Shown here one piece after another: positions 7 through 11,818 of a stretch of DNA of 39,920 nucleotides (positions are counted from its first letter, which is position 1; each line of letters starts with the position of its first letter). The DNA is from Mucilaginibacter sp. Lineage in GTDB: Bacteria; Bacteroidota; Bacteroidia; Sphingobacteriales; Sphingobacteriaceae. The notes under the pieces were generated by a model. The model was given only the letters and a program-made list of their open reading frames with translations. It searched no databases and was not told the DNA's origin. The stretch covers positions 1 to 39,920 of the forward strand of contig JAQBOK010000235.1 in assembly GCA_028288085.1 (NCBI GenBank), in the 5' to 3' direction. The position numbers and the translations under genes are program-made.

Positions 7-957
7 ATGGACCCTAAAATTTCTATCTGGAAGCGCATTGGTATACAGGATTGGTTTTTGACTAATGAAAACACACAAAAATCCCAAAAACAACAGACCC
101 TTACGCCTGATGATGTTTATAATTATGTTATAGCAAAATTTAATGATTCTATCCGCCAGTTATCATTCGCCGACCGTGTGGTTTTTTATCATGAATATAT
201 AATCAGTTTTAATTCAGAAGATTATATAGAATTTATGAATAATAAACAGGGTATATTCGGGCTTATCGTAAATGAATCAGTAAAAAAATTCTACGAATTG
301 TTAAAACAACACCGCATAGCCGGTAAGACGGTTGAACCATCGAGTTCAAAATGGGTATTCAGATTGGTGTCTCATCCTGATTATAATCGTGGCGATATTG
401 GCTTTATAGGTAAATTGTTGCCGGGAATAAGTAAAAAGGAGGAAAATTTAAGGGTGACTTTTATTCCGCGACAAACAGGTATTGCACAAACATTTGATAT
501 CAGCCAGGATATATTGAAAGGCTTTAATTATTATAGTGAAGGGTATTATGAACTGCCTTATGCAGAGGCCCTTGAATATGACGAAAGTAGCGCTGCAAAT
601 TCGGCCCAAAAAAGTTTTGCCCGGTTTGAAACCATCCTCCCTGAAAAGCAATTTGCCGGGAAGAAGGTGGAGTATATTATGAAGGATGATGAAATAATTG
701 TATCCGGAAATGAAGAAAGCCGGGAAGAGTCCAATATCTTCAAAATCCCGTCCGAATGGGTAAATACTCCGCATCTCCTTATCCGGTTTAACAAATCAGA
801 TGGTAAATTTTACCTGGCATCATTTGGCGAGTTAACAATAATGAATGAAAATGAAGTGGTTAAAAGTAATGTGAACTCGCCTTTATGGGTCGAACTTCCT
901 ATTAATTCAAAGATATTACTGAATGGAATTATTGGTGTTAACATATTTAAATCATAG
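7..957 (+). CDS. FhaA-like protein with degenerate C-terminal FHA-like domain
   Basis: A soluble protein of 316 residues if the ATG at 7 is the start. The frame stays open to the window edge, so the true start may lie further left. Residues 35-150 resemble, from memory, the N-terminal domain of actinobacterial FhaA (DUF3662): a helical start, a strand around HEYIISFNSEDY, and a second helical stretch ending in a G-containing strand. Residues 230-316 look like an FHA beta sandwich (IIVSG, HLLIRF, DGKFYLASFG, then an ending like LxLNGIIGVNIF). They lack the GR and SxxH motifs that bind phosphothreonine, so phosphopeptide binding is probably lost. It is the first visible gene of an operon with a PP2C phosphatase and a cell-wall synthase. 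The likely role is scaffolding or regulation of that synthase. The domain assignment is by eye only; a profile search would decide it. Confidence 0.6.
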   Translation: MDPKISIWKRIGIQDWFLTNENTQKSQKQQTLTPDDVYNYVIAKFNDSIRQLSFADRVVFYHEYIISFNSEDYIEFMNNKQGIFGLIVNESVKKFYELLKQHRIAGKTVEPSSSKWVFRLVSHPDYNRGDIGFIGKLLPGISKKEENLRVTFIPRQTGIAQTFDISQDILKGFNYYSEGYYELPYAEALEYDESSAANSAQKSFARFETILPEKQFAGKKVEYIMKDDEIIVSGNEESREESNIFKIPSEWVNTPHLLIRFNKSDGKFYLASFGELTIMNENEVVKSNVNSPLWVELPINSKILLNGIIGVNIFKS

Positions 958-962
958 CTGAT

Positions 963-1061
963 ATGTCACAAATTTTATCGGTAGGGTTGTTGGTTATTTG
1001 CATCTTCTTATTGGTAACGCATTTTTTCGATATTAAAAACTCAGGTAAATCAAATGGCTGA
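963..1061 (+). CDS. 32-residue single-span membrane micropeptide
   Basis: A short open frame begins with ATG 5 nt after the preceding stop. It ends with TGA inside the first codons of the phosphatase gene, giving an 8-base overlap (ATGGCTGA). Its product has one hydrophobic stretch from about residue 4 to 21 (ILSVGLLVICIFLLVTHFF), then a short polar tail FDIKNSGKSNG, so it is probably a membrane peptide with one span. The exact fit between two operon genes, and the stop-start overlap typical of translational coupling, argue that it is translated. It might be a separate anchor or regulator: actinobacterial FhaB carries its own membrane span next to pstP, although no homology is claimed. It could also be a leader that couples translation of the phosphatase. 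No known family is recognised. Confidence 0.5.
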   Translation: MSQILSVGLLVICIFLLVTHFFDIKNSGKSNG

Positions 1062-2481
1062 CCAGTTTTTTGGAATAACAGATACAGGTAAAGAACGGCA
1101 AAACAATGAAGATACCTTTATTGCACAACAGGGTGAAAATAATAAATTCATTATTGCCTGTGTTATTGATGGTGTAGGTGGATACTCAGGTGGTGAAATT
1201 GCCGCTGCGATAGCGCGTGAAGCCATTCTTCAGCGTCTTGAAAAGCCTTCGGGAGAAATCACATCCATGATTATTGATTGTTTTAGGCTGGCAAATGAAA
1301 AAATCTGGCATGAAAAACAACAAGTTAAGGAACATGATAGTATGGCCTGTGTTTCTACATTGGCCATAGTGGATATAGCTCATAACCAGTTTTACTATGC
1401 GCATGTAGGCGATACGAGGCTGTATCTGCTGCGCGATAACTCTCTGGTTAAAATTTCTCATGATCAATCTTTTGTAGGGTTTTTAGAAGATTCCGGGCGG
1501 TTAACAGAAGAAGCCGCGATGCATCATCCAAAGCGCAATGAGATCAACAAGGCGCTGGGCTTTGAAAGTTTGATAAGCAGCAATAGCGATTACATTGAAA
1601 CAGGCCAATCGCCGTTTCTTTCGGGGGATATGCTGCTGCTATGCAGTGATGGCTTAACCGATATGGTGGATAGAGCCGAAATTACGTCTATCATTATTGG
1701 AGAAGGCTCATTAAAAGATAAATGTCAAAAACTTGTTAATGCGGCAAATGCGCATGGTGGAAAAGACAATATTACCGTGGTATTGGTGCAAAATAATAAC
1801 ACCCCGCTAAAGCATGATGCTACGATGCCGGCAGCAAACTCAAAAAAAAATAATAATAGTGAAAATGATAACCTTGCCGCCCCACAGAAATCTGGGGCAT
1901 TTGATAGAAGGTTGCCGGGTACAGCAACAAAAAGCAACAAGAGCCTTATCATTATACTTTTTCTGTTGATGCTTGTTTTTTTTGCGAGTACCATATGGCT
2001 GTATTTACAAAGCGGGCAGGTTGTACAAAAAAATGCTGTGGCACCAGTTAAAAAAAGCCGGAACAAACAAGAAATAAAACTTCAACAAGCTATTGACCAG
2101 CTAAACGGCCATGTATTAATACTTTCAGACACGGCTTATACTGCCCCAATACTGATTAGTGAAGCTATTCGGATCAATAAAGATAGTTTGCTGATCAAGG
2201 CCAGGGGGAAAATTGTGCTTCAAAGCGATTCGGGATACACGGGCCCAGCATTAAGCCTGTCCCAAAAATGTAAAAGTGTTGTATTGGATAGCTTGTCTGT
2301 TAATAATTTCCGGGTAGGTATAGCTGCATATAACAGTGCTTTAACGCTAAAAAATATAAGGTTTGTGAATTGCCCTATGCCGCTCCAAAATGCATTCACT
2401 TTTGCTGATAAAAAATATATGAGCGGGAAATTGCCTGTTATTCTTTTCAGAACCGATTCCGTGCCAATGATCAAAAAATAA
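1054..2481 (+). CDS. Membrane PP2C-type Ser/Thr phosphatase with extracytoplasmic domain
   Basis: A 475-residue PP2C (PPM family) metal-dependent protein phosphatase that removes phosphate from Ser/Thr. The catalytic domain spans residues 3-246 with its metal-binding motifs intact: NED (Asp20), DGVGG (Asp39, Gly40), HVGDTR (Asp120), CSDGL (Asp199) and GKDNITVV (Asp238). A polar linker (250-295) leads to one membrane span (about 298-318) and an outside domain of some 150 residues. This last part (345-450) has short repeated strand patterns such as LDSLSVNNFR and LTLKNIRFVNC, which suggest a small right-handed beta helix. The layout resembles mycobacterial PstP: catalytic domain inside, span, outer domain. 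The gene overlaps the micropeptide and lies 4 nt before the cell-wall synthase, so co-translation is likely. The expected substrates are FHA-bound phosphoproteins or a cognate kinase, which is not in the window. Confidence 0.88.
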   Translation: MADQFFGITDTGKERQNNEDTFIAQQGENNKFIIACVIDGVGGYSGGEIAAAIAREAILQRLEKPSGEITSMIIDCFRLANEKIWHEKQQVKEHDSMACVSTLAIVDIAHNQFYYAHVGDTRLYLLRDNSLVKISHDQSFVGFLEDSGRLTEEAAMHHPKRNEINKALGFESLISSNSDYIETGQSPFLSGDMLLLCSDGLTDMVDRAEITSIIIGEGSLKDKCQKLVNAANAHGGKDNITVVLVQNNNTPLKHDATMPAANSKKNNNSENDNLAAPQKSGAFDRRLPGTATKSNKSLIIILFLLMLVFFASTIWLYLQSGQVVQKNAVAPVKKSRNKQEIKLQQAIDQLNGHVLILSDTAYTAPILISEAIRINKDSLLIKARGKIVLQSDSGYTGPALSLSQKCKSVVLDSLSVNNFRVGIAAYNSALTLKNIRFVNCPMPLQNAFTFADKKYMSGKLPVILFRTDSVPMIKK

Positions 2482-2485
2482 AGTA

Positions 2486-5400
2486 ATGGAACAGGAAAGA
2501 TCTACACCGGTTTCCAGAAAAAAAGAGCGCTTGTTTTTATTGCTGATAGCCATTGTTTTAGGCTTGCTTTTTTGCCGTTTGTTTTTTGTGTTCCAAAGAA
2601 ATTTTACCGATGTAGACAAGCGGCTTGGAGAAGGTACCATGGTTAACCTGAATGCCAGCGACCCTGCTAAGAATACAAGATTACTTTTAGAAAAAAGATA
2701 TTATTTTGAAGATAAGAGGGATATTGATCTAATAGAAAACGTTTTAGCCGAAAGAATTAATACAGGTAAAAAATTTGAGAATATAGGTGAACTAAATAAG
2801 CGGGAATATAACATTGACGCGGATGAAGCTTTTAATAAAGGCGGATCCTCTTTTAAACAAAGAGTAATGGTATCCCGTGCGTTATTAGGCTACACCGGGG
2901 ACGATTCACTGCGTTTTATACAGGAAAAAACCAATCCGCCGACTTTACCCACCATTACAGATATTGGCTTAAATGGTAACAGTATTTCGGGAAAAGTGCT
3001 AAACAAAACCGTACCTGTACCCGGAATATTGATAAGGCTCCAGATGATACTGCCCCAGGACAGTACGTATAGTGATGAAGAAACTGATCTTGTTAAAGCT
3101 AAAACAGAGACGGGCAAAGGTTATAAAAAAGTGTATGTTTTGGATGCAGGCGGTCAAAAACATCTGCAATCATTAGTAGCTTTTGCACGGACAGATGAGC
3201 AGGGGATTTATACTTTTAAAAATTTGCCTGCAAACAAAGCATTTGAGGTTTTACCATTACAGCCTGGCTATCAATTTGGTAAACCATTAGGTACCGAGAG
3301 CCTGGATAAAGATGAACAATTTACCTTTTACCAGTCGCCTCATACCATCAGGCTTTTATCATCAAAGGATTTCAGCATCCTCAAAAAGGAAAAATCGTTT
3401 ATTATACGTACCCCGGCAGAATTCAATCTTTGGTTCTGGATAATTGCAGGCGCTTTCTTTGCATGTTTTTTATTAATGCACATTATTTTAAGCTGGAGGT
3501 TCTCTTCTTCAGACCAGCTTATCCTTCCTTTGATCATGATCCTCACAGGAATATCATTCTTAACCTTATTAAGTTTGCAAGACCCATTGCGTGATCGTTT
3601 TTTAGCAAAAGATTCACTGGTTTATTTGGGGATGGGATTTGCCGGGATGGCCTTTTTGTTGTTATTTAATCTTCGCCGTTTTACCGCTGATTCTGGTTTA
3701 TACCGGATGTTTGTTTTCAAAAACAACCGCAAAGCTGCTAATGGCTGGCCGTGGATTATTTTGGCTATGGTATTGCTTGTGCTAACTATACGCTTTGGTT
3801 CCGGTCCTGAAGGGAGCGGCGTAAAAGTTAACCTGTTTGGTATTCAGCCAAGCGAGATCGTTAAATACCTGGTTATTATTTTCCTGGCGGGATTTTTTGC
3901 TGCCAATGAGAAGTTCATCAGCGAATATGCGAGCTGGCGAAAAAGATGGTCGTTTTTTTCATTTGCATTAATCTCAATCGGCATAACCCTTTTCTTGTTC
4001 CTGATGCTTGGAGATATGGGACCGGCGATGATCATCTGTTTTACCTTTATTATTCTTTTCTCATTTTCAAGAGGCGATTTTATGTTCATGATAATGGCTG
4101 TAGTTTTCTACGTGCTTGTTACCTGGATATTTGAAAACGTATGGTTGTCTGCCCTGCTAACGGCATTGATGTTGTTTTTTGTTATATTATTTAAACGTAA
4201 ACAGTTAAGCGAATCGGCAATAATGGCTTTGGTAATTATAGCCGGGTTTTTAACCATTGATAAGATCCCTCACCTGGATAAATTAATACCGGGACCAGTG
4301 CAGCGTTTGGTAGATCGTAAAGCAATATGGCAGGATGCCTGGAATAACGAAGTTTATGGCGGCGACCAGGTAGCCAACGGGCTGTGGGCGATGTCTAGTG
4401 GCGGGGTAACCGGGCAGGGCGTTGGAGAGGGCTTTGCGAAAACAATACCAGAGGCGCATACAGATATGATATTGCCTTCTATAGGTGAAGAATTTGGATG
4501 GACTGGCATTATATGTATCTTTTTATTGTTTTTGTTATATCTGCACCGGTCAATAATTATTGGCCGGCAAACGGGCACACCCTTTCTGTTTTATTTATGC
4601 GCGGGTATTGGTATCTGCACGTTCGTGCAATTTTTATTGATATCAGGTGGCTCAACGGGGGCTTTGCCTTTGTCCGGCGTAGCTTTGCCGTTTGAAAGTT
4701 ATGGTGGATCATCATTAGTGGCGAATTTTCTGGCGGCAGGGGTTTTATTATCAGCTTCGCTGGTAAAAGGAACACCGGTACAAATGGCCTTCATTACTAA
4801 GCAACAAGACCGTAACCTGGTGCCTGCGCTAATGGCGGCCTGTGTTGGTATTGTATTATTAACTGTTAATGTTTCGCGCTACTTTTTTGATAATAAAAAA
4901 TGGATAATTAAACCATCACTGGTTGCTGACAGGAGCGGGGGCAGGATGTTTAGTTATAATCCACGTATTGCCATTTTGATGAATAAACTCCAGGCAGGTA
5001 CACTTTATGACCGGCAGGGGCTCATTCTGGCAACCAGTGATCCTAACCTCATCAGGAAACAGCAGAGTTTATTCAGTGCCGCAGGGGTTCAAAACTACAA
5101 CCTGGATTCGGCCATGCACAAACGCTTAAACCGGTATTATCCTTTTGACGAGCAAATGTTTTTTTGGGTGGGCGATTCCAATACAGGTGTTTTTAATGGC
5201 AGCACTAACGGGTACTTTGCAGAATATGAGCATGCCGCAGAGCTGCGTGGCTTTAAAATGCCTGATACCAGCTATAATGTACACGCCAGCCGTTACCGTG
5301 AGGGTCGGTTTTTACCTGTAGGTGTAAAGGAAATGACTGTTAGCAAAAAGGATTACAGCGCCCTGACGCCCTTGCTGATCGCAGGAATAAACAGCAATGA

Positions 5401-6574
5401 GGTAGATGCTTTTAAAAAAAGAAACCGTGATGTGCAGCTTACAGTAGATGCCGATTTGCAAACCAGTATTCAAAGATCAATTGCTGCTGATACTTCATTG
5501 AATGATAACCGGGTATCCGTGGTCATAATGGAAGCTTCAACCGGCGATGTGCTGGCATCGGCATTGTATCCTTTGCCGCCGGTACATAACTGGGACCAAC
5601 TTAATATTCCCGTAACCGAACAGAATAAACTGTCGCAATGGATAACCACGAGCGATTTGGGCTTTACCTATGCTACACAGCCGGGTTCAACTGCAAAAGT
5701 GCTCACTACTATGGCCGCATTTAATAAACTTGGTTTGGAAGCTGCTAATGTGAAATTTACTGTGAGTATGGCCGAACGCATACGTACCAAAGGCATAGAG
5801 CCTGATGAGACAGGGGTGATCACTCTTGAGCGCGCTGTGGTAAAGTCTAACAACGTATACTTTATAAAATTGGCGAACGAGCAACATTTAGAGGAAGATA
5901 TGGCCACACTCTATTTGAAAACGGGAATGTTTTTGCATGGTGTTGGTGGTTATTTTTATGGCAAGCAACCCAATAATACTGCCCAGGAAGAAAAATGGCT
6001 GGAGTTATGGCGTAAAACCGAATTTAATACCAGGCCGCGGTACGATCCCAACAATGTTCATCGTACGCGGGCTAAAGGGATCTCGGGAATGGCGTGGGGA
6101 CAGGGAGAATTAATTGCCACGCCAGCCGCTGTTGCTAGGTTGGTATCGGGGGTGGCCAATAACGGGTTGTTGATTGCAAACCGCTTCGTGTTGAAAGTAA
6201 ATGATTCCGCGCAGCCAATTAAAGGTGGCATAAAACTGGCTAATGATCCACAATATGCCGGTTTGATTACAAAATATATGATTGAACAAAGCGCGCCCAA
6301 GGTGCCAGTGTTAGGCATAAGTGTTGCGGGCAAGACGGGCACGCCAGAACGGATATGGAAAAAACAAAGCATCAATGATGGTTGGTATGTGTTTTTTGCC
6401 CCCAAAGCCAATGGTAAAGGGAATATGGTAGTTTGTATCCGCATTGAATCTACTAAAGGATCATCGGATGCAGTAAGACTTGCCGGGCAGCATGTTATCC
6501 CGTTCCTGTTAAAAAAAGGCTATATAAAAAGCATATCACCAGTATCTGATGAAGAGGTGTCAACGAATGAATAG
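2486..6574 (+). CDS. SEDS glycosyltransferase (RodA/FtsW) fused to class B penicillin-binding protein
   Basis: A 1362-residue fusion that should carry both steps of peptidoglycan synthesis. Residues 15-36 form a first span. Residues 37-310 lie outside and contain a carboxypeptidase-regulatory-like beta fold (about 165-260, ISGKV to GIYTFKNLP). A second span (313-336) leads to the SEDS core (345-765), with QPSE (454-457), LGDMGPA (508-514), the catalytic loop PEAHTDMILPSIGEEFG (expected catalytic Asp660) and the VALPFESYGGSS signature (732-743). A span at 779-800 enters the transpeptidase, which has the YDRQG box (841-845) and all three penicilloyl-enzyme motifs: STAK (nucleophile Ser1068), SNN (1121-1123) and KTG (1283-1285). 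SEDS and PBP are normally two genes of about 380 and 500-650 codons. No stop or frameshift interrupts the join, and the predicted topology is consistent with both active sites outside. It is the central gene of the operon. Confidence 0.9.
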   Translation: MEQERSTPVSRKKERLFLLLIAIVLGLLFCRLFFVFQRNFTDVDKRLGEGTMVNLNASDPAKNTRLLLEKRYYFEDKRDIDLIENVLAERINTGKKFENIGELNKREYNIDADEAFNKGGSSFKQRVMVSRALLGYTGDDSLRFIQEKTNPPTLPTITDIGLNGNSISGKVLNKTVPVPGILIRLQMILPQDSTYSDEETDLVKAKTETGKGYKKVYVLDAGGQKHLQSLVAFARTDEQGIYTFKNLPANKAFEVLPLQPGYQFGKPLGTESLDKDEQFTFYQSPHTIRLLSSKDFSILKKEKSFIIRTPAEFNLWFWIIAGAFFACFLLMHIILSWRFSSSDQLILPLIMILTGISFLTLLSLQDPLRDRFLAKDSLVYLGMGFAGMAFLLLFNLRRFTADSGLYRMFVFKNNRKAANGWPWIILAMVLLVLTIRFGSGPEGSGVKVNLFGIQPSEIVKYLVIIFLAGFFAANEKFISEYASWRKRWSFFSFALISIGITLFLFLMLGDMGPAMIICFTFIILFSFSRGDFMFMIMAVVFYVLVTWIFENVWLSALLTALMLFFVILFKRKQLSESAIMALVIIAGFLTIDKIPHLDKLIPGPVQRLVDRKAIWQDAWNNEVYGGDQVANGLWAMSSGGVTGQGVGEGFAKTIPEAHTDMILPSIGEEFGWTGIICIFLLFLLYLHRSIIIGRQTGTPFLFYLCAGIGICTFVQFLLISGGSTGALPLSGVALPFESYGGSSLVANFLAAGVLLSASLVKGTPVQMAFITKQQDRNLVPALMAACVGIVLLTVNVSRYFFDNKKWIIKPSLVADRSGGRMFSYNPRIAILMNKLQAGTLYDRQGLILATSDPNLIRKQQSLFSAAGVQNYNLDSAMHKRLNRYYPFDEQMFFWVGDSNTGVFNGSTNGYFAEYEHAAELRGFKMPDTSYNVHASRYREGRFLPVGVKEMTVSKKDYSALTPLLIAGINSNEVDAFKKRNRDVQLTVDADLQTSIQRSIAADTSLNDNRVSVVIMEASTGDVLASALYPLPPVHNWDQLNIPVTEQNKLSQWITTSDLGFTYATQPGSTAKVLTTMAAFNKLGLEAANVKFTVSMAERIRTKGIEPDETGVITLERAVVKSNNVYFIKLANEQHLEEDMATLYLKTGMFLHGVGGYFYGKQPNNTAQEEKWLELWRKTEFNTRPRYDPNNVHRTRAKGISGMAWGQGELIATPAAVARLVSGVANNGLLIANRFVLKVNDSAQPIKGGIKLANDPQYAGLITKYMIEQSAPKVPVLGISVAGKTGTPERIWKKQSINDGWYVFFAPKANGKGNMVVCIRIESTKGSSDAVRLAGQHVIPFLLKKGYIKSISPVSDEEVSTNE

Positions 6575-6598
6575 AGTTTTTAAGTAATACTTATTAAT

Positions 6599-7390
6599 AT
6601 GTTTGATTTATTTAAAAGGAATGAAAATAGGGGTCCGAGGGACGTAAAGGGTTTACGTGATTCACTATTGCGGTTTATTAAGGAAGAATTACAAAAGGCA
6701 GAAGGAGGGGAGGGACGTCATATTAAAGGGATAAATCTCTTTATTTCAAGCAATGCTGGTGAGAAACATATTTATGAGGCAGCCGTATATCTGGAAGAAA
6801 AAGATAGATTTAAAGAAGAAATACAAAAAATTGCAGATGATTTTGCTTTGGATATACCCATCAATTGGGAAATGCAAATTAGCTTTGATGATGCTTTCCC
6901 ACCGGAAGCCATAAAAATCAATGATCTGGATGCAGCTATTTTTATCAGGACAAAGGATCATGTGATACAAAAATCAGGGTCTGCCTTTATTAGAATATTA
7001 AATGGCGAGGCCGATCAGAATGAATATCAGATTACTTCGGCAGGTGGTAAAATCAATATCGGCCGGGAGAAGAAAGCGTTGGTTGATGATGGTTTTTTCA
7101 GGCTTAATCATATTGCATTCCCCGCAGATAGTGTGAATGAGGGCAATAAATTCATCAGCAGGCAGCATGCTCATATTGAGTGGAATAACGATAGTGGTTG
7201 CTTTATGCTTTTTGCTGATGATGGAGGAATACCTCCGGGAAATAAGATCAAGATAAGGTCGGTAACAAATAAAAATTTGATAAAACTAAATTCAACTCAT
7301 ATTGGCCATAAACTGGAAGAGGGCGACCAGGTTATTTTGGGTGAGTCGGCGGTTTTGGAATTTAGCTACCTTACCGCTAATAAGGACTGA
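6599..7390 (+). CDS. FHA-domain protein
   Basis: A 263-residue soluble protein. The C-terminal half (about 130-258) is an FHA domain, a module that binds phosphothreonine peptides. INIGRE (Arg156) and SRQHAHIEW (Ser187, Arg188, His190) are the conserved ligand-binding motifs. The end (LEEGDQVILGESAVLEFSY) is the usual last strands. The N-terminal 120 residues are alpha/beta and could be a distant relative of the FhaA N-terminal domain, but this is weak. It lies 24 nt after the SEDS-PBP gene and is the last gene of the operon; the next gene is convergent. Unlike the FhaA-like protein at the left edge, it keeps its binding residues. It is therefore the likely reader of a kinase-made phosphothreonine in this system, perhaps on the synthase or its regulators. 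Confidence 0.85.
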   Translation: MFDLFKRNENRGPRDVKGLRDSLLRFIKEELQKAEGGEGRHIKGINLFISSNAGEKHIYEAAVYLEEKDRFKEEIQKIADDFALDIPINWEMQISFDDAFPPEAIKINDLDAAIFIRTKDHVIQKSGSAFIRILNGEADQNEYQITSAGGKINIGREKKALVDDGFFRLNHIAFPADSVNEGNKFISRQHAHIEWNNDSGCFMLFADDGGIPPGNKIKIRSVTNKNLIKLNSTHIGHKLEEGDQVILGESAVLEFSYLTANKD

Positions 7391-7411
7391 CAACTGCTTT
7401 GGTACTGATGG

Positions 7412-8929
7412 CTATTTTCCACTTTTATCCGTTGAAATTGGCGGTGCAATTAAATGAACCGGCTCCTTAAATAAACCAAAATCACTTAAGGCAATACATA
7501 CAGGTGATGATGTAATACGCAATCGTAATTTAGCGGTGGTTATATTTTGCGGTAAACGTATCAATCGGTTAGCTCCAACACTTGGCACGGTTGCAATTTC
7601 TTTCCATTGGCCGTTTTGCCAGCTATCAACGGCGGCTCCTTCAATGCGCTGTCCCAACTTTGTATTTTCACGAAGTCTTATCACGTTAAATGTTTTGGCG
7701 TTGTGAAGATTAATAATCAGTTCAGGTTTTGTTACCTCATCGTCTGTTGCCCAATAGGTATAGCGGTTATTATCTGTCAAATGTCCGGGTCCGAATTTTG
7801 TGATATTGCCAGCCCGAATGTTGCTGGCTTTGAAGGTAGCACCTTTAGCCAGATCAACAGCAAAAGTTTGCCCTATTACCCGCCCAAATTGTGTTAAAAT
7901 GTTCACATCTTCATTACTTAATACCCCATCTTTATCTGGTGATAAGCCCAGGTCAAGGCAAGCACCCCTGCCCACGCTTTTATAATACAAATCAACCAGG
8001 GTAGATACCGATTTTGATTGCCCATCCTGCGATTGATGATAGAACCATCCCGGTCTTAACGGTACATCACACTCGGCCGGCATCCAATATTTACCGTTGC
8101 GCGTGCCTACAGTCCCCTCATAATCTTTAACATAACCGTTTGCAGGGTTTTTGCCCTCATCAGGCGCGTGAGGTGTATAGGTGGCCCAATAAGTTTCTCC
8201 GGCATGGCCTTCTTCATTCCCCACCCATCTTACATCGGGCCCTACATCGCCAAAAATACAAGCGCCAGGTTGCATTTTGCGGGTAATGGCCCAGGTAGTA
8301 TCCCAGCCATAATAAGTGGATCGATCAATTTTGCGAACTTCCCGGGTGCCGCCATAATAACCATCACCCCCGTTTGCTCCATCGTGCCAAGACATAAACA
8401 ACGGGCCATAATTAGTATACAGTTCTTTTAGTTGTTTGCGATATACATCTTTTACATATTCTGGCTTGCCATACAGGGGGCTGTTCCTATCCCAGGGCGA
8501 ACAATATACTCCCATTTTCATTCCCAGTTGATTACAGGCCAATCGATACTCTTTAAGCAAATCGCCTTTGCCGCCCCTCCATCGGCTCTGGCTGATATTA
8601 TGCTCAGTGGTTTTTGTGGGCCAAAGGCAAAAACCGTCGTGATGTTTGGCCACTACCACAATACCTTTAAAACCTCCGGCTTTTGCGGCGCTTAATATTT
8701 GTAAAGCGCTGAAATTCTTTGGATCAAAAATTTTAGGATCTTCATCACCATAACCCCATTCTTTATCGGTATAAGTAGCTACACTAAAATGTATAATGCA
8801 GTACATTTCTGTTTCCTGCCAGGCCAATTGTCGTTGTGACGGGATAGCTCCATAAGGTTTAGGGGTGATCTGAGCTATAGTAGCTAAACAACAGGCAAGC
8901 AAAAAAGCAGATAAGAATAGTTTTTTCAT
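7412..8929 (-). CDS. Secreted alpha-L-fucosidase, GH29 family, with discoidin-like C-terminus
   Basis: A 505-residue exported glycoside hydrolase expected to remove terminal alpha-L-fucose from glycans. The start chosen is the ATG at 8929, because it begins a classical signal peptide (MKKLFLSAFLLACCLATIAQ). The longer frame to 9001 would put 24 polar residues in front. GH29 hallmarks are an early W-E-x-E-M-Y-C-I-I-H-F strand, KHHDGF (95-100), and FMSWHDGANGG, where Asp183 is the likely nucleophile; His182 replaces the common Phe of WFDG. Residues 385-495 (GHLTDNNRYTYWA, ELIINL) resemble an F5/8 type C (CBM32-like) domain, as in many GH29 enzymes. It stands alone between the cell-wall operon (convergent, 21 nt away) and the peroxidase pair. 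A 12-bp palindrome lies 50 nt upstream. Substrate linkage cannot be read from the sequence. Confidence 0.88.
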   Translation of the reverse strand: MKKLFLSAFLLACCLATIAQITPKPYGAIPSQRQLAWQETEMYCIIHFSVATYTDKEWGYGDEDPKIFDPKNFSALQILSAAKAGGFKGIVVVAKHHDGFCLWPTKTTEHNISQSRWRGGKGDLLKEYRLACNQLGMKMGVYCSPWDRNSPLYGKPEYVKDVYRKQLKELYTNYGPLFMSWHDGANGGDGYYGGTREVRKIDRSTYYGWDTTWAITRKMQPGACIFGDVGPDVRWVGNEEGHAGETYWATYTPHAPDEGKNPANGYVKDYEGTVGTRNGKYWMPAECDVPLRPGWFYHQSQDGQSKSVSTLVDLYYKSVGRGACLDLGLSPDKDGVLSNEDVNILTQFGRVIGQTFAVDLAKGATFKASNIRAGNITKFGPGHLTDNNRYTYWATDDEVTKPELIINLHNAKTFNVIRLRENTKLGQRIEGAAVDSWQNGQWKEIATVPSVGANRLIRLPQNITTAKLRLRITSSPVCIALSDFGLFKEPVHLIAPPISTDKSGK

Positions 8930-8979
8930 GTATAGGTTAGTTCTGAACCGATTTGACGGAATGCTTGTAAACAATTTCC

Positions 8980-8991
8980 CGGGTATACCCG
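8980..8991. promoter_or_regulatory. 12-bp perfect palindrome upstream of the fucosidase gene
   Basis: CGGGTATACCCG is a perfect palindrome located 50 nt before the chosen fucosidase start, where an operator overlapping the promoter would sit. It is unusually GC-rich for this AT-rich spacer. No regulator gene is adjacent, so the binding protein is unknown. Confidence 0.35.
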
Positions 8992-9091
8992 CCCCGTTCA
9001 TCGCAAGTTAAAAAAAAGCCGGAAATACCATCAAAAGGAATATCAAATTACAAGCGATGTAAAATGGAGAACTACAACAGTAAAAGATATT

Positions 9092-9155: not shown

Positions 9156-10577
9156 CTAAACTGTTAAATATTTTAATGCCGGAATTGCAGGTAGAAAGAA
9201 ATATCCTCCGCCTTTTACCTGCACAAACCGGGGGATGCCGGTAAATACTTCTCTTACAGATGATGGGATAGTCATGTTATATTCCTTGCCCGAATTATCA
9301 CCCCTTGGATCAAAGTTGTTGCCCGCTATTGGATCACGATCATTATACATATCTCCAAATTTTGGATTGTTTATCCATGTTTGCTGTACAAATTCAAATT
9401 GTCTTTTAATATCTGCATTTACGCATAAAAATAATATTCCACGGTCCTGGCCATCATCTAAGCTACCACCAGGAAACGGCTGTCCGTATTGTATTCCACG
9501 CCGCAGTAAGCGGTGGCGGTTAACAGTTTTTATAGATTGCTCCTGATTGCCGGCCAATGAATCCCGTGGGTTCGACCTGCGAATATGAGATGCTATCGGG
9601 CAGGAGAGACCTTTAGCATCATTATTCATAAAAAAGAAATTGTTTTTATCATTCACATCAGGTATATCTATATCAGGGGAGATTACCAAAGGCGTTCCGC
9701 TTGGCCACCGGCCAACAAATTTTGCAGCTACCAGGGCCTTATGTTCTGCACTTTTAGTGTTTGCATCGAGATAACTATTAAACCCGGCTACGTCCTGGTA
9801 CAGCTTCCTGAAAACGAGGTAGCTTCCATTACAGCCGAAATCCTTAAGATTGTTGTCGGTAGACAGGCCGGGTAAATAATCATTTTTATCATCAGTAGCT
9901 TTTATAGTGGGTGTGGCCGGCAACAATTCATACTCGTTATGATAACCCAATATAAATTCTCCGGCCCTTACACAAGATTGAGTGCCTTTTGGAGTAGCCG
10001 GACTGTGTTCAATAAAGGGTTGGGATATACTATCGGTAAAACCAAAATGCTCCTTATTATTTGGGGGTTGATTGCCATATTCTGATTTCACCAAACTTAT
10101 TCCAAACCGTGTGTAGTCGGATTTTAGCTCATTAGAAAAAGTATCTCTTTCTTCAATGTTTGGCGCTTGTATAATGAGTAGAATATGCACACCTTCTTCT
10201 TTTATATCCCAAAGTTCGGGCGCGCTATTGCCATCATCGCCCAAACGGCGTGTGCGATGTGGTTCCGTTATGCCTTCAGCAAACTCCTGTGAAAAGCCGG
10301 ACACGAATGCCGGGCCGAACTTTTTAATGCCTGCATAAGTAAATGCGATATTTAAGGCGCAACCAGGTTTTTTCTTTTTCCCGTTTTCATCGTCGGGCCT
10401 GTGGGCAGTTGTTATTTTGGGAATGATAGCGGCAAGCCAATTTTTGGCTAAACTTGTGTCGCTAGTGGCTAAAAACTGGTATTCGGAATTTGGAAGATGA
10501 CCATAACCACTAATAATAATTCCCTGAATATTCTTTAATTCTTCTGGAGTAAGTTTTTTTAAGGTTTGAGTCGCCAT
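9156..10577 (-). CDS. DyP-type haem peroxidase
   Basis: A 473-residue dye-decolorising-type peroxidase, a haem enzyme that oxidises organic substrates with hydrogen peroxide. The family signature GxxDG appears as GFTDS (179-183), keeping the catalytic Asp182 but with Ser for the last Gly. The haem-ligand region reads SCPIASHIRRSNPRD, giving His331 as the proximal ligand. HRLLRRGIQYG (355-365) supplies the distal region common to the family. There is no signal peptide or twin-arginine motif, so the protein is probably cytoplasmic. No encapsulin gene is nearby. It is longer than small bacterial DyPs (about 300-350 residues) and fits the larger C/D-type group. It lies 53 nt after the duplicated-domain protein gene, and the two probably form one unit. 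The physiological substrate is unknown. Confidence 0.88.
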   Translation of the reverse strand: MATQTLKKLTPEELKNIQGIIISGYGHLPNSEYQFLATSDTSLAKNWLAAIIPKITTAHRPDDENGKKKKPGCALNIAFTYAGIKKFGPAFVSGFSQEFAEGITEPHRTRRLGDDGNSAPELWDIKEEGVHILLIIQAPNIEERDTFSNELKSDYTRFGISLVKSEYGNQPPNNKEHFGFTDSISQPFIEHSPATPKGTQSCVRAGEFILGYHNEYELLPATPTIKATDDKNDYLPGLSTDNNLKDFGCNGSYLVFRKLYQDVAGFNSYLDANTKSAEHKALVAAKFVGRWPSGTPLVISPDIDIPDVNDKNNFFFMNNDAKGLSCPIASHIRRSNPRDSLAGNQEQSIKTVNRHRLLRRGIQYGQPFPGGSLDDGQDRGILFLCVNADIKRQFEFVQQTWINNPKFGDMYNDRDPIAGNNFDPRGDNSGKEYNMTIPSSVREVFTGIPRFVQVKGGGYFFLPAIPALKYLTV

Positions 10578-10630: not shown

Positions 10631-11818
10631 TTAAGAGCCATAATAGCCCATTATTAAATTTGGCCTCCCATTGGGACGGCTAAGGCTGCTTATTTTTTGG
10701 CTAAGGCTTAAATCAGTTAATATATTACGAACGGTTGAATCTTTATATGCGCTATAAAATATCTGGGCCGGGATCTGGTTTTGCCGGATATAGCTTTTAA
10801 AAGATTCAATATCTTTGCTGCCACCTTTTGGATAACCAATACAATTGCCCCATATTACGTTCATTCCCACGCTCGCATGATCTACAAAATCATCAATGTA
10901 ATTTTCCCAGCTGCCATCAAAGTTGCTTTCAAATAATATATTGTTTCCGTTATCAATAATTACCCACCTGGCAAAATGAATGGTGGCGAGGTCTGAAAGT
11001 GAGCCCTTAGCAGTTTTAACCTGGATGCTGATGCCCCAAAGAATCGCCCGTAAAAAGAGCCGGTGCAAAATGGATTTTTTTACAGGCACTATTACTGTCA
11101 TTTGGTTTTGGGTTACCAAATCCTCCATATCATACAAATGGTTACTTGTTTCAACCCTAATCTGTGGGTTGTTTTCACCATATCGTATACCTGCAATCCA
11201 TTCCAGTACATTAGAAATTATTCCTAAAATAAAGCTGCCAAAAGTTGCCTTAACCGGTTTTGGCCTTGCTGTTGAGAGATGGGTTGTCCTTAATTTTTCG
11301 TATTCATCATGAAGTAAAGCGACTGCCACTTTATCGTCATCACTTATTGTGCCTGCATTAAGGGTTTGATCCATTTTGAGGCGCAAATCAGCGCTTTCGC
11401 TTATAATAGCTTGTGTTGCGCCTGGTAGTGCGACATAAAATGCTTGTGAATTAATATTACGATTGTTTAAAAATGCGACCGCTTTAGTATTAGTTAGTAA
11501 GGTACCTGCTTCATAACTATCACACCTTGAAAAAATGGCATCAAGAGCCGGTGCTACATTGGTATCAATTAATTCCTTTGCATAAAGGTCGAAATCACCG
11601 TCAAAGTTGCTCGTGAACAAAAGACGTTTAGTACTGCTGTATGGCTTTGCGGTGGGGAGAATAACAAACCGTGCAAAATGGGTGAGGCTGGTTTTACTAA
11701 AATCAATTTTGGGATTTTTAGCCAGTAGTTGTCCAATAGAATTTAGCTCTTTCTCCAGCCATGAGGCGTTTTCCTCACTAGCTATTGGTAAGATCAGGGT
11801 TAGTGCGCATTGCTTCAT
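10631..11818 (-). CDS. Unknown protein with tandem duplicated domain, partner of DyP peroxidase
   Basis: A 395-residue protein of no family I recognise. It contains two copies of a roughly 135-residue unit (about 4-143 and 240-370) joined by a linker with a hydrophobic segment (193-211, FGSFILGIISNVLEWIAGI) that may touch or cross a membrane. Each copy starts with a strand (LTLILPI; MTVIVPV). Then come THFARFVIL / IHFARWVII, a strand plus SNFDG(D/S)(F/W)xxY, a Cys-containing segment (RCDSY / GNCIGYP), and a helix-strand ending (INSQAFYVA / IPAQIFYSA). The strand-helix rhythm suggests a ferredoxin-like or dimeric alpha/beta-barrel fold, the general fold class of DyP itself. This is an inference. 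It is first in a two-gene unit with the peroxidase, so it may help substrate access, haem delivery or localisation. Confidence 0.7.
   Translation of the reverse strand: MKQCALTLILPIASEENASWLEKELNSIGQLLAKNPKIDFSKTSLTHFARFVILPTAKPYSSTKRLLFTSNFDGDFDLYAKELIDTNVAPALDAIFSRCDSYEAGTLLTNTKAVAFLNNRNINSQAFYVALPGATQAIISESADLRLKMDQTLNAGTISDDDKVAVALLHDEYEKLRTTHLSTARPKPVKATFGSFILGIISNVLEWIAGIRYGENNPQIRVETSNHLYDMEDLVTQNQMTVIVPVKKSILHRLFLRAILWGISIQVKTAKGSLSDLATIHFARWVIIDNGNNILFESNFDGSWENYIDDFVDHASVGMNVIWGNCIGYPKGGSKDIESFKSYIRQNQIPAQIFYSAYKDSTVRNILTDLSLSQKISSLSRPNGRPNLIMGYYGS

Follow-up and report, generated by a model that had tools for sequence, protein, structure and literature searches.

A conserved Bacteroidota operon joining a SEDS-PBP fusion to phosphothreonine signalling genes, a candidate accessory peptidoglycan synthase

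An operon of five genes around a SEDS-PBP fusion

Contig JAQBOK010000235.1 of a Mucilaginibacter sp. (Bacteroidota; assembly GCA_028288085.1, a draft genome of 383 contigs) carries at its left end, at positions 7-7390, an operon of five open reading frames (ORFs) built around a fusion of a SEDS glycosyltransferase with a class B penicillin-binding protein (PBP). The entire contig of 39,920 bases is referred to here as the window, and it begins 6 nt upstream of gene 1. The five genes lie on the same strand and encode, in this order, a protein with a C-terminal forkhead-associated (FHA) fold, a membrane micropeptide, a PP2C-type phosphatase, the SEDS-PBP fusion and a second FHA protein, and are separated by 5, -8 (an overlap of the micropeptide and PP2C genes, ..AATGGCTGA..), 4 and 24 nt (Table 1). 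The original prediction, made from the letters of the window, had described five tightly packed genes, among them a PP2C phosphatase, a RodA-PBP fusion, an FHA gene and a membrane micropeptide; ORF coordinates and spacing agree with it, Pfam domains were found in the first three products, and the micropeptide recurs in relatives, as described below.

Table 1. Features of the operon (positions in the window; residues are numbered within each product)
Feature	Position	Strand	Basis and remarks
Gene 1, 316 amino acids (aa)	7..957	+	N-terminal alpha/beta domain and C-terminal FHA fold
Membrane micropeptide, 32 aa	963..1061	+	MSQILSVGLLVICIFLLVTHFFDIKNSGKSNG; recurs in relatives
PP2C-type phosphatase, 475 aa	1054..2481	+	Pfam and hydropathy
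SEDS-PBP fusion, 1362 aa	2486..6574	+	Pfam and motifs; presumed bifunctional peptidoglycan synthase
Fusion, N-terminal part: transmembrane (TM) helix and long, presumably extracytoplasmic segment	2486..3415	+	Hydropathy
Fusion, SEDS glycosyltransferase core, residues about 345-760	3518..4765	+	Pfam and H-T-D motif (658-660)
Fusion, class B PBP transpeptidase domain, residues 1011-1326	5516..6463	+	Pfam and motifs
Gene 5, FHA protein, 263 aa	6599..7390	+	Pfam and fold; phosphothreonine (pThr)-pocket residues present

The fusion holds the FTSW_RODA_SPOVE (PF01098, 155.3 bits) and Transpeptidase (PF00905, 84.2 bits) domains in one ORF, and is a single ORF of 1322-1443 aa in 36 relatives. According to hydropathy, a TM peak at residues 17-35 is followed by a TM-free stretch, which is presumably extracytoplasmic, and then by TM helices from residue 317 (317-335) to residue 796, the last of which precedes the transpeptidase domain. 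The H-T-D motif of the SEDS part and the PBP motifs S1068-x-x-K1071, S1121-x-N1123 and K1283-T-G are invariant in 11 aligned rows, including those of a distant third family, referred to below as the Spirosoma group; the conserved Asp of HTD and the SxxK, SxN and KTG motifs are what we take to be the marks of SEDS proteins and class B PBPs, respectively. The phosphatase matches Pfam PP2C_2 (54.7 bits) and has motif residues that are invariant over 14 rows; its catalytic domain is followed by one TM helix at about residues 298-316 and by a tail of about 160 aa, which presumably lies outside the cytoplasm. In one relative (L111), the fusion reads as two ORFs 12 nt apart, possibly a split gene, and elsewhere some contigs cut it; in another (L112) about 4.2 kb, possibly an insertion, separate the fusion from the FHA gene.

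The two flanking proteins differ in how readily their FHA domains are recognized. Gene 5 scores 25.6 bits against Pfam FHA (cut-off 20.7), and the C-terminal FHA fold (residues about 125-260; Z 14.0 over 101 residues, root-mean-square deviation (rmsd) 2.1), which stands behind an N-terminal alpha/beta domain, retains G155, R156, S187, R188, H190 and N215 without exception in 77 rows; these would correspond to the GR, SRxH and N positions that we assume to form the pThr pocket and that were assigned by eye in genes 1 and 5. Gene 1 of the window has no Pfam match. Its predicted structure (mean predicted local distance difference test score 75.7) contains an FHA fold at residues 200-316 (nt 604-954), which aligns with FHA at VIA Z values of up to 14.4 over 101 residues (rmsd 2.0), and an N-terminal alpha/beta domain of about residues 28-140, and two of three distant orthologues, both from the Spirosoma group, exceed the Pfam cut-off for FHA (22.0 and 25.3 bits), the third (L075) being unmatched. 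FHA similarity, on which the original prediction had relied for both flanking proteins, is therefore present in each: Pfam and fold show it for gene 5, the fold and the two distant orthologues for gene 1.

The description of gene 1 as FhaA-like fared less well, as the FHA fold stands and the FhaA_N domain (PF12401, DUF3662) is undemonstrated in either protein: Pfam gave no match to it in gene 1 or gene 5. When the N-terminal domain of gene 1 was compared with six FhaA_N sequences by HHalign, P was 0.062 with genus-level rows and 0.004 after Spirosoma rows had been added; in the latter case none of 100 column shuffles scored as high, yet 9 of 250 decoy windows did, the six best of those listed all coming from overlapping windows in a single part of the fusion. 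Gene 5 resembles FhaA_N more weakly in its N-terminal domain, whose score was reached by 1 of 100 shuffles and by 19 of 250 decoy windows. When compared directly, the two N-terminal domains are not alike, as 44 of 100 shuffles reached their score.

A short ORF of 28-36 aa with a single, strongly hydrophobic stretch follows gene 1 in all 79 loci that possess gene 1, a recurrence for which no chance expectation was calculated, and the sequences resemble each other. The C-terminus mostly reads [HN]F-x-[DE][IV]K followed by a basic tail; in three Spirosoma-group loci, the peptides are 23-27 aa long and end in HFQDLPR or HFRNLPQ. Among 42 relatives of 32 aa, differences at codon positions 1, 2 and 3 amount to 8830, 4898 and 13897, summed over pairs and hence not independent. 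This pattern is as expected for a selected peptide, and the 32-aa ORF looks real.

Distribution of the operon and its kinases

A (nearly) full-length fusion is encoded in 23 of 37 genomes of the genus, the source genome included, and a further genome (G005) has a piece of it at a contig end; in the same search sample, none of 23 genomes from other families has it. Gene 1 was found in 58 of 251 genomes of the family (7 of 25 genera) and in 9 of 395 genomes of the phylum, and the fusion in 10 of 395 genomes of the class, distributed over three families. A scan of species genomes yielded 257 pattern matches; a relative of the query is encoded in 215 of them, and the best 80 of these 215 were examined. 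The 80 include loci from Mucilaginibacter, Pedobacter, Paradesertivirga, Daejeonella, Hufsiella, Flavisolibacter, Segetibacter, Ferruginibacter and Paracnuella. The neighbourhood sets used here and below overlap in genomes, so that their counts are not independent. The order gene 1-PP2C-fusion-FHA is kept in 78 of the 80 loci, the two exceptions (L136 and L145) being contig ends, which rules out a chance arrangement. It is likewise retained, together with at least one kinase, in all 20 neighbourhoods that were selected for divergence. The original prediction would have fallen had no related genome shared the gene order, which in fact recurs in three different families within the class.

In most loci from Chitinophagaceae, the order is FHA-PP2C-SEDS::PBP-FHA-kinase(s). 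In the third family (two genomes), both kinases are placed between PP2C and the fusion, and because a 136.7-kb plasmid of Spirosoma oryzicola has the same arrangement (annotated as FHA, PP2C, Ser/Thr kinase, Ser/Thr kinase, FtsW/RodA, FHA), this family is presumptively called the Spirosoma group; the gene table of the plasmid, which is incomplete, lists no coding sequence in the gap where the micropeptide occurs. Given the plasmid copy and the patchy distribution, transfer of the operon is possible.

In relatives, kinase genes stand beside the operon. In 16 neighbourhoods from the genus (20 kb each, drawn from 23 other fusion carriers, with kinases grouped by BLAST similarity), a kinase gene lies immediately upstream of gene 1 in every case, with 9-144 nt between the two or an overlap of 1 nt, as anticipated by the original prediction, which had expected a kinase to the left of gene 1; a second kinase follows the FHA gene in 8 of the 16. 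Across the 80 loci, one to three kinases are found nearby in 75, and the five without (L114, L136, L145, L161 and L167) each have a contig end beside the operon. The kinase gene of the window's own operon has apparently been lost in an assembly gap. A low-scoring kinase match elsewhere in the source genome was rejected, as its ORF reads as ABC1/UbiB-like and not as a Hanks kinase. The window contig and L161 both start just before gene 1, for which similar kinase copies on either side of the operon are a possible cause.

One of the genus kinases (L032) matches PF00069 with 121.5 bits, and the Lys, Glu, catalytic Asp, DFG and APE residues are invariant over 18 rows. Hanks kinases usually have an HRD motif; HGD takes its place in 124 of the 125 kinases of the 80 loci, the remaining one having no such motif, and the four kinases of the Spirosoma-group loci L076 and L077 have HRD. 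Exactly one TM helix lies behind the kinase domain in 122 of 124 kinases. Of 73 kinases located downstream of the fusion, 31 (e.g., L152:14916-16211) have a basic C-terminus of the K(K)RKKFLGIF type behind the TM helix, against 0 of 52 upstream kinases. The kinases of L105 and L110 (Flavisolibacter and Segetibacter) are 549-638 aa long and have longer tails behind the TM helix, possibly sensor domains; no Pfam domain scored above the cut-off in the five such tails scanned. A reading of the locus as a defence system was discarded: the PADLOC matches (25 of 34 shown) are to kinase-bearing models, PD-T4-6 and others, and to one weak PP2C model, and neither the fusion nor the FHA genes were matched by PADLOC.

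To the right of the operon, the gene next to gene 5 (7412-9001) lies on the opposite strand and matches alpha-L-fucosidase; it is followed by a DyP-type peroxidase homologue (9156-10577; 31.7 and 24.1 bits) and an adjoining gene for a 395-aa protein (10631-11818) with no Pfam match at E<=1e-4. In a Mucilaginibacter sub-lineage (L043-L047), gene families c6-c13 are found next to it in no more than four to five genomes, which suggests a fixed site in that lineage.

Known wall synthases and the origin of the fused synthase

The source genome keeps a housekeeping elongation set together on contig C84, with MreB at 2151, a PBP2-type ORF at about 4568-6574 and RodA at about 6567-7838, so that the fusion is additional, in line with the second wall synthase that had been proposed, and the operon dispensable. 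The assembly yielded no FtsW, probably owing to a gap, because relatives in the genus have a second single-domain SEDS protein of the size and position of FtsW.

The closest likeness is to the actinobacterial fhaA-fhaB-pstP-rodA-pbpA-pknA-pknB locus, the part of which in wall growth has been studied and which also holds two FHA proteins, PP2C, SEDS, class B PBP and kinases. The gene order there is almost that found here, the Chitinophagaceae arrangement being nearly collinear with it. These parts, which the original prediction had placed together in Actinobacteria, were read at one locus in Nonomuraea (L208: FhaA_N+FHA, FHA, PP2C, RodA, PbpA, kinase and PASTA kinase) and, as annotated, in Actinomyces oris (L221), and part of the locus was read in Tsukamurella (L223; no PP2C listed in the gap). 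In contrast to the separate rodA and pbpA genes there, SEDS and PBP are fused here and carry an extra N-terminal part; the Bacteroidota unit further differs in its micropeptide, its HGD kinases, the failure to detect PASTA in eight kinases scanned by Pfam (E<=10 in two, E<=1 in six), where PknB of Nonomuraea scores 146 bits, and the failure to detect PF12401, and it is accessory, beside MreB-PBP2-RodA. A clostridial cluster in Monoglobus pectinilyticus (L236) resembles it in having an FHA gene directly 5' of SEDS and PBP, but these are separate ORFs, and no kinase or PP2C is listed within 14 kb in a gene table that is incomplete. With the Rod system (mrdAB with mreBCD), it shares the use of SEDS and class B PBP, there RodA and PBP2, as one functional synthase, whereas that system is not known to include kinase, PP2C or FHA genes such as these. 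Among the matches listed from open-licence PMC papers, there was no description of the operon. Artificial Escherichia coli RodA-PBP2 fusions are reported to be active, and natural SEDS-PBP single ORFs are said to exist, with the Rhodococcus RHA1 genome paper cited (PMC10449877), which is an actinobacterial case.

The original prediction had left open whether the likeness to Actinobacteria stems from a common ancestor, transfer or convergence. The principal rival to shared ancestry is that a Bacteroidota RodA or FtsW duplicate became fused to a PBP and that it came to be surrounded by kinase, PP2C and FHA genes without any link to the actinobacterial locus; such modules have been assembled repeatedly in bacteria, which speaks for it. 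The SEDS trees argue against it. In a tree of 36 SEDS domains (eight fusions, four actinobacterial RodA, Monoglobus, seven Bacteroidota RodA, seven FtsW and others, with RodA and FtsW labels on Bacteroidota rows assigned in this analysis), the fusions group with actinobacterial RodA and the FHA-linked SEDS of Monoglobus (98/96), apart from Bacteroidota RodA and FtsW. The grouping recurs in an earlier tree with other sampling (98/95), without the actinobacterial rows (99/92, with Monoglobus), without Monoglobus (100/98) and with stricter, well-filled columns (100/98), the five trees sharing most of their rows. Trees in which the fusions are held with Bacteroidota RodA are rejected by the approximately unbiased test (p-AU 0.014, or 0.037 with E. 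coli RodA added), whereas a grouping with Bacteroidota FtsW is not (p-AU 0.106), the constrained groups having been chosen after the first tree was seen. The branch of the fusions is long (1.86), and long-branch attraction is therefore possible.

Profile scores point both ways. With a profile of the fused SEDS domain, the three top scores all belong to FHA-linked SEDS proteins (Tsukamurella RodA 119, Monoglobus 118, Nocardia RodA 114) and the source genome's own RodA reaches 87, which counts against convergence; the best Bacteroidota FtsW-type protein scores 84. On the other side, two SEDS proteins of Bacillus velezensis follow directly (107 and 101), RodA of Nonomuraea and of A. oris (98 and 96) scores no better than E. 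coli FtsW or a Mucilaginibacter RodA (98 each), and both a PDB search and NCBIfam put the SEDS part closer to FtsW than to RodA. The profile of the PBP half ranks Monoglobus (76), Acetoanaerobium (66), B. velezensis PBP2B (55) and Nonomuraea PbpA (49) before the best Bacteroidota PBP2 (42) and the genome's own PBP2 (36.5). In the best PBP tree, this half stands beside PBP2, including that of E. coli, without support (63/11); constraints to Bacteroidota PBP2 alone (p 0.054) and to FtsI (p 0.089) were also evaluated. With the undetected PASTA and the undemonstrated FhaA_N added to its credit, and the near-collinear gene order set against it, we regard convergence as unlikely. On the SEDS trees, a common origin of at least the SEDS part, whether through descent or through transfer, is more likely than convergence; the PBP tree is uninformative and the profile scores are mixed.

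Proposed function and alternative readings

Taken together, the operon probably encodes an accessory, phospho-regulated peptidoglycan synthase. Control of wall growth by kinase, PP2C and FHA proteins is a subject of study in Gram-positive bacteria. In the operon, one polypeptide would combine SEDS polymerase with class B transpeptidase, one or more single-pass Hanks Ser/Thr kinases beside the operon would place phosphates on threonines of the synthase, of partner proteins or of the kinases themselves, and gene 5, with its canonical FHA domain, would read pThr and dock onto the complex. The degenerate FHA protein encoded by gene 1 and the micropeptide would serve as scaffold and membrane anchor, and the membrane PP2C would reset the switch. 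We infer the enzyme activities, the phosphorylation targets and a phospho-switch that turns synthesis on or off upon an envelope signal.

Several observations weigh against this reading. No full-length fusion is present in 13 of the 37 genus genomes, some of them incomplete, and gene 1 was not found in 193 of the 251 family genomes, so that the unit is dispensable. Neither the window nor the rest of the source assembly yields a Hanks kinase, and a relative's kinase used as query gave no match there. None of the eight kinases scanned has PASTA, and no known wall-sensing domain was recognized in six kinase tails. The FHA domain of gene 1 seems, by eye and within the family of the window, to lack most pThr-pocket residues, the Arg and Ser positions included. 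The PBP tree does not place the PBP half with PbpA, the PbpA grouping being 0.2 log-likelihood units worse (p-AU 0.463).

Two further readings concern function rather than origin. The genes might form a general Ser/Thr phospho-signalling module, for stress or for a threonine phosphorylation like that of type VI secretion, with the wall synthase as one output only; the several kinases per locus and their variable tails fit this, but of the five gene families traced, the constant one without a signalling role is the synthase, and outside the unit no neighbouring gene family is common to more than 5 of 17 neighbourhoods compared, which makes it improbable. We give equally little credence to a low-affinity, beta-lactam-tolerant back-up synthase for wall repair or antibiotic tolerance with phospho-control as a secondary trait, to which the accessory distribution, the plasmid copy and the best PDB matches of the PBP half (PBP2a, then PbpA and PBP5; 8e-10 to 2e-6) would be suited, since these matches are weak and may merely mirror which structures exist.

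For the accessory, phospho-regulated synthase, a wider scenario can be drawn, which we advance tentatively and rate at somewhat below even chances: a pThr-controlled elongation synthase of the Gram-positive type may have entered, or survived in, the diderm Bacteroidota as a self-contained and partly mobile cassette. SEDS and PBP would have merged and acquired an extracytoplasmic control domain, other kinase tails would have replaced PASTA sensing, and a micropeptide of 23-36 aa would have become an obligate subunit, giving the cell a switchable second mode of wall building that is independent of mreB-rodA. Deletion of the unit need not be lethal, because the genome keeps its normal MreB-PBP2-RodA set. 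The micropeptides would constitute a family that has probably been overlooked in annotation and that may partner the synthase or the phosphatase, and a compact, accessory version of the system with a one-protein synthase, in culturable Bacteroidota, would allow a direct test of how pThr switches a SEDS-PBP pair.

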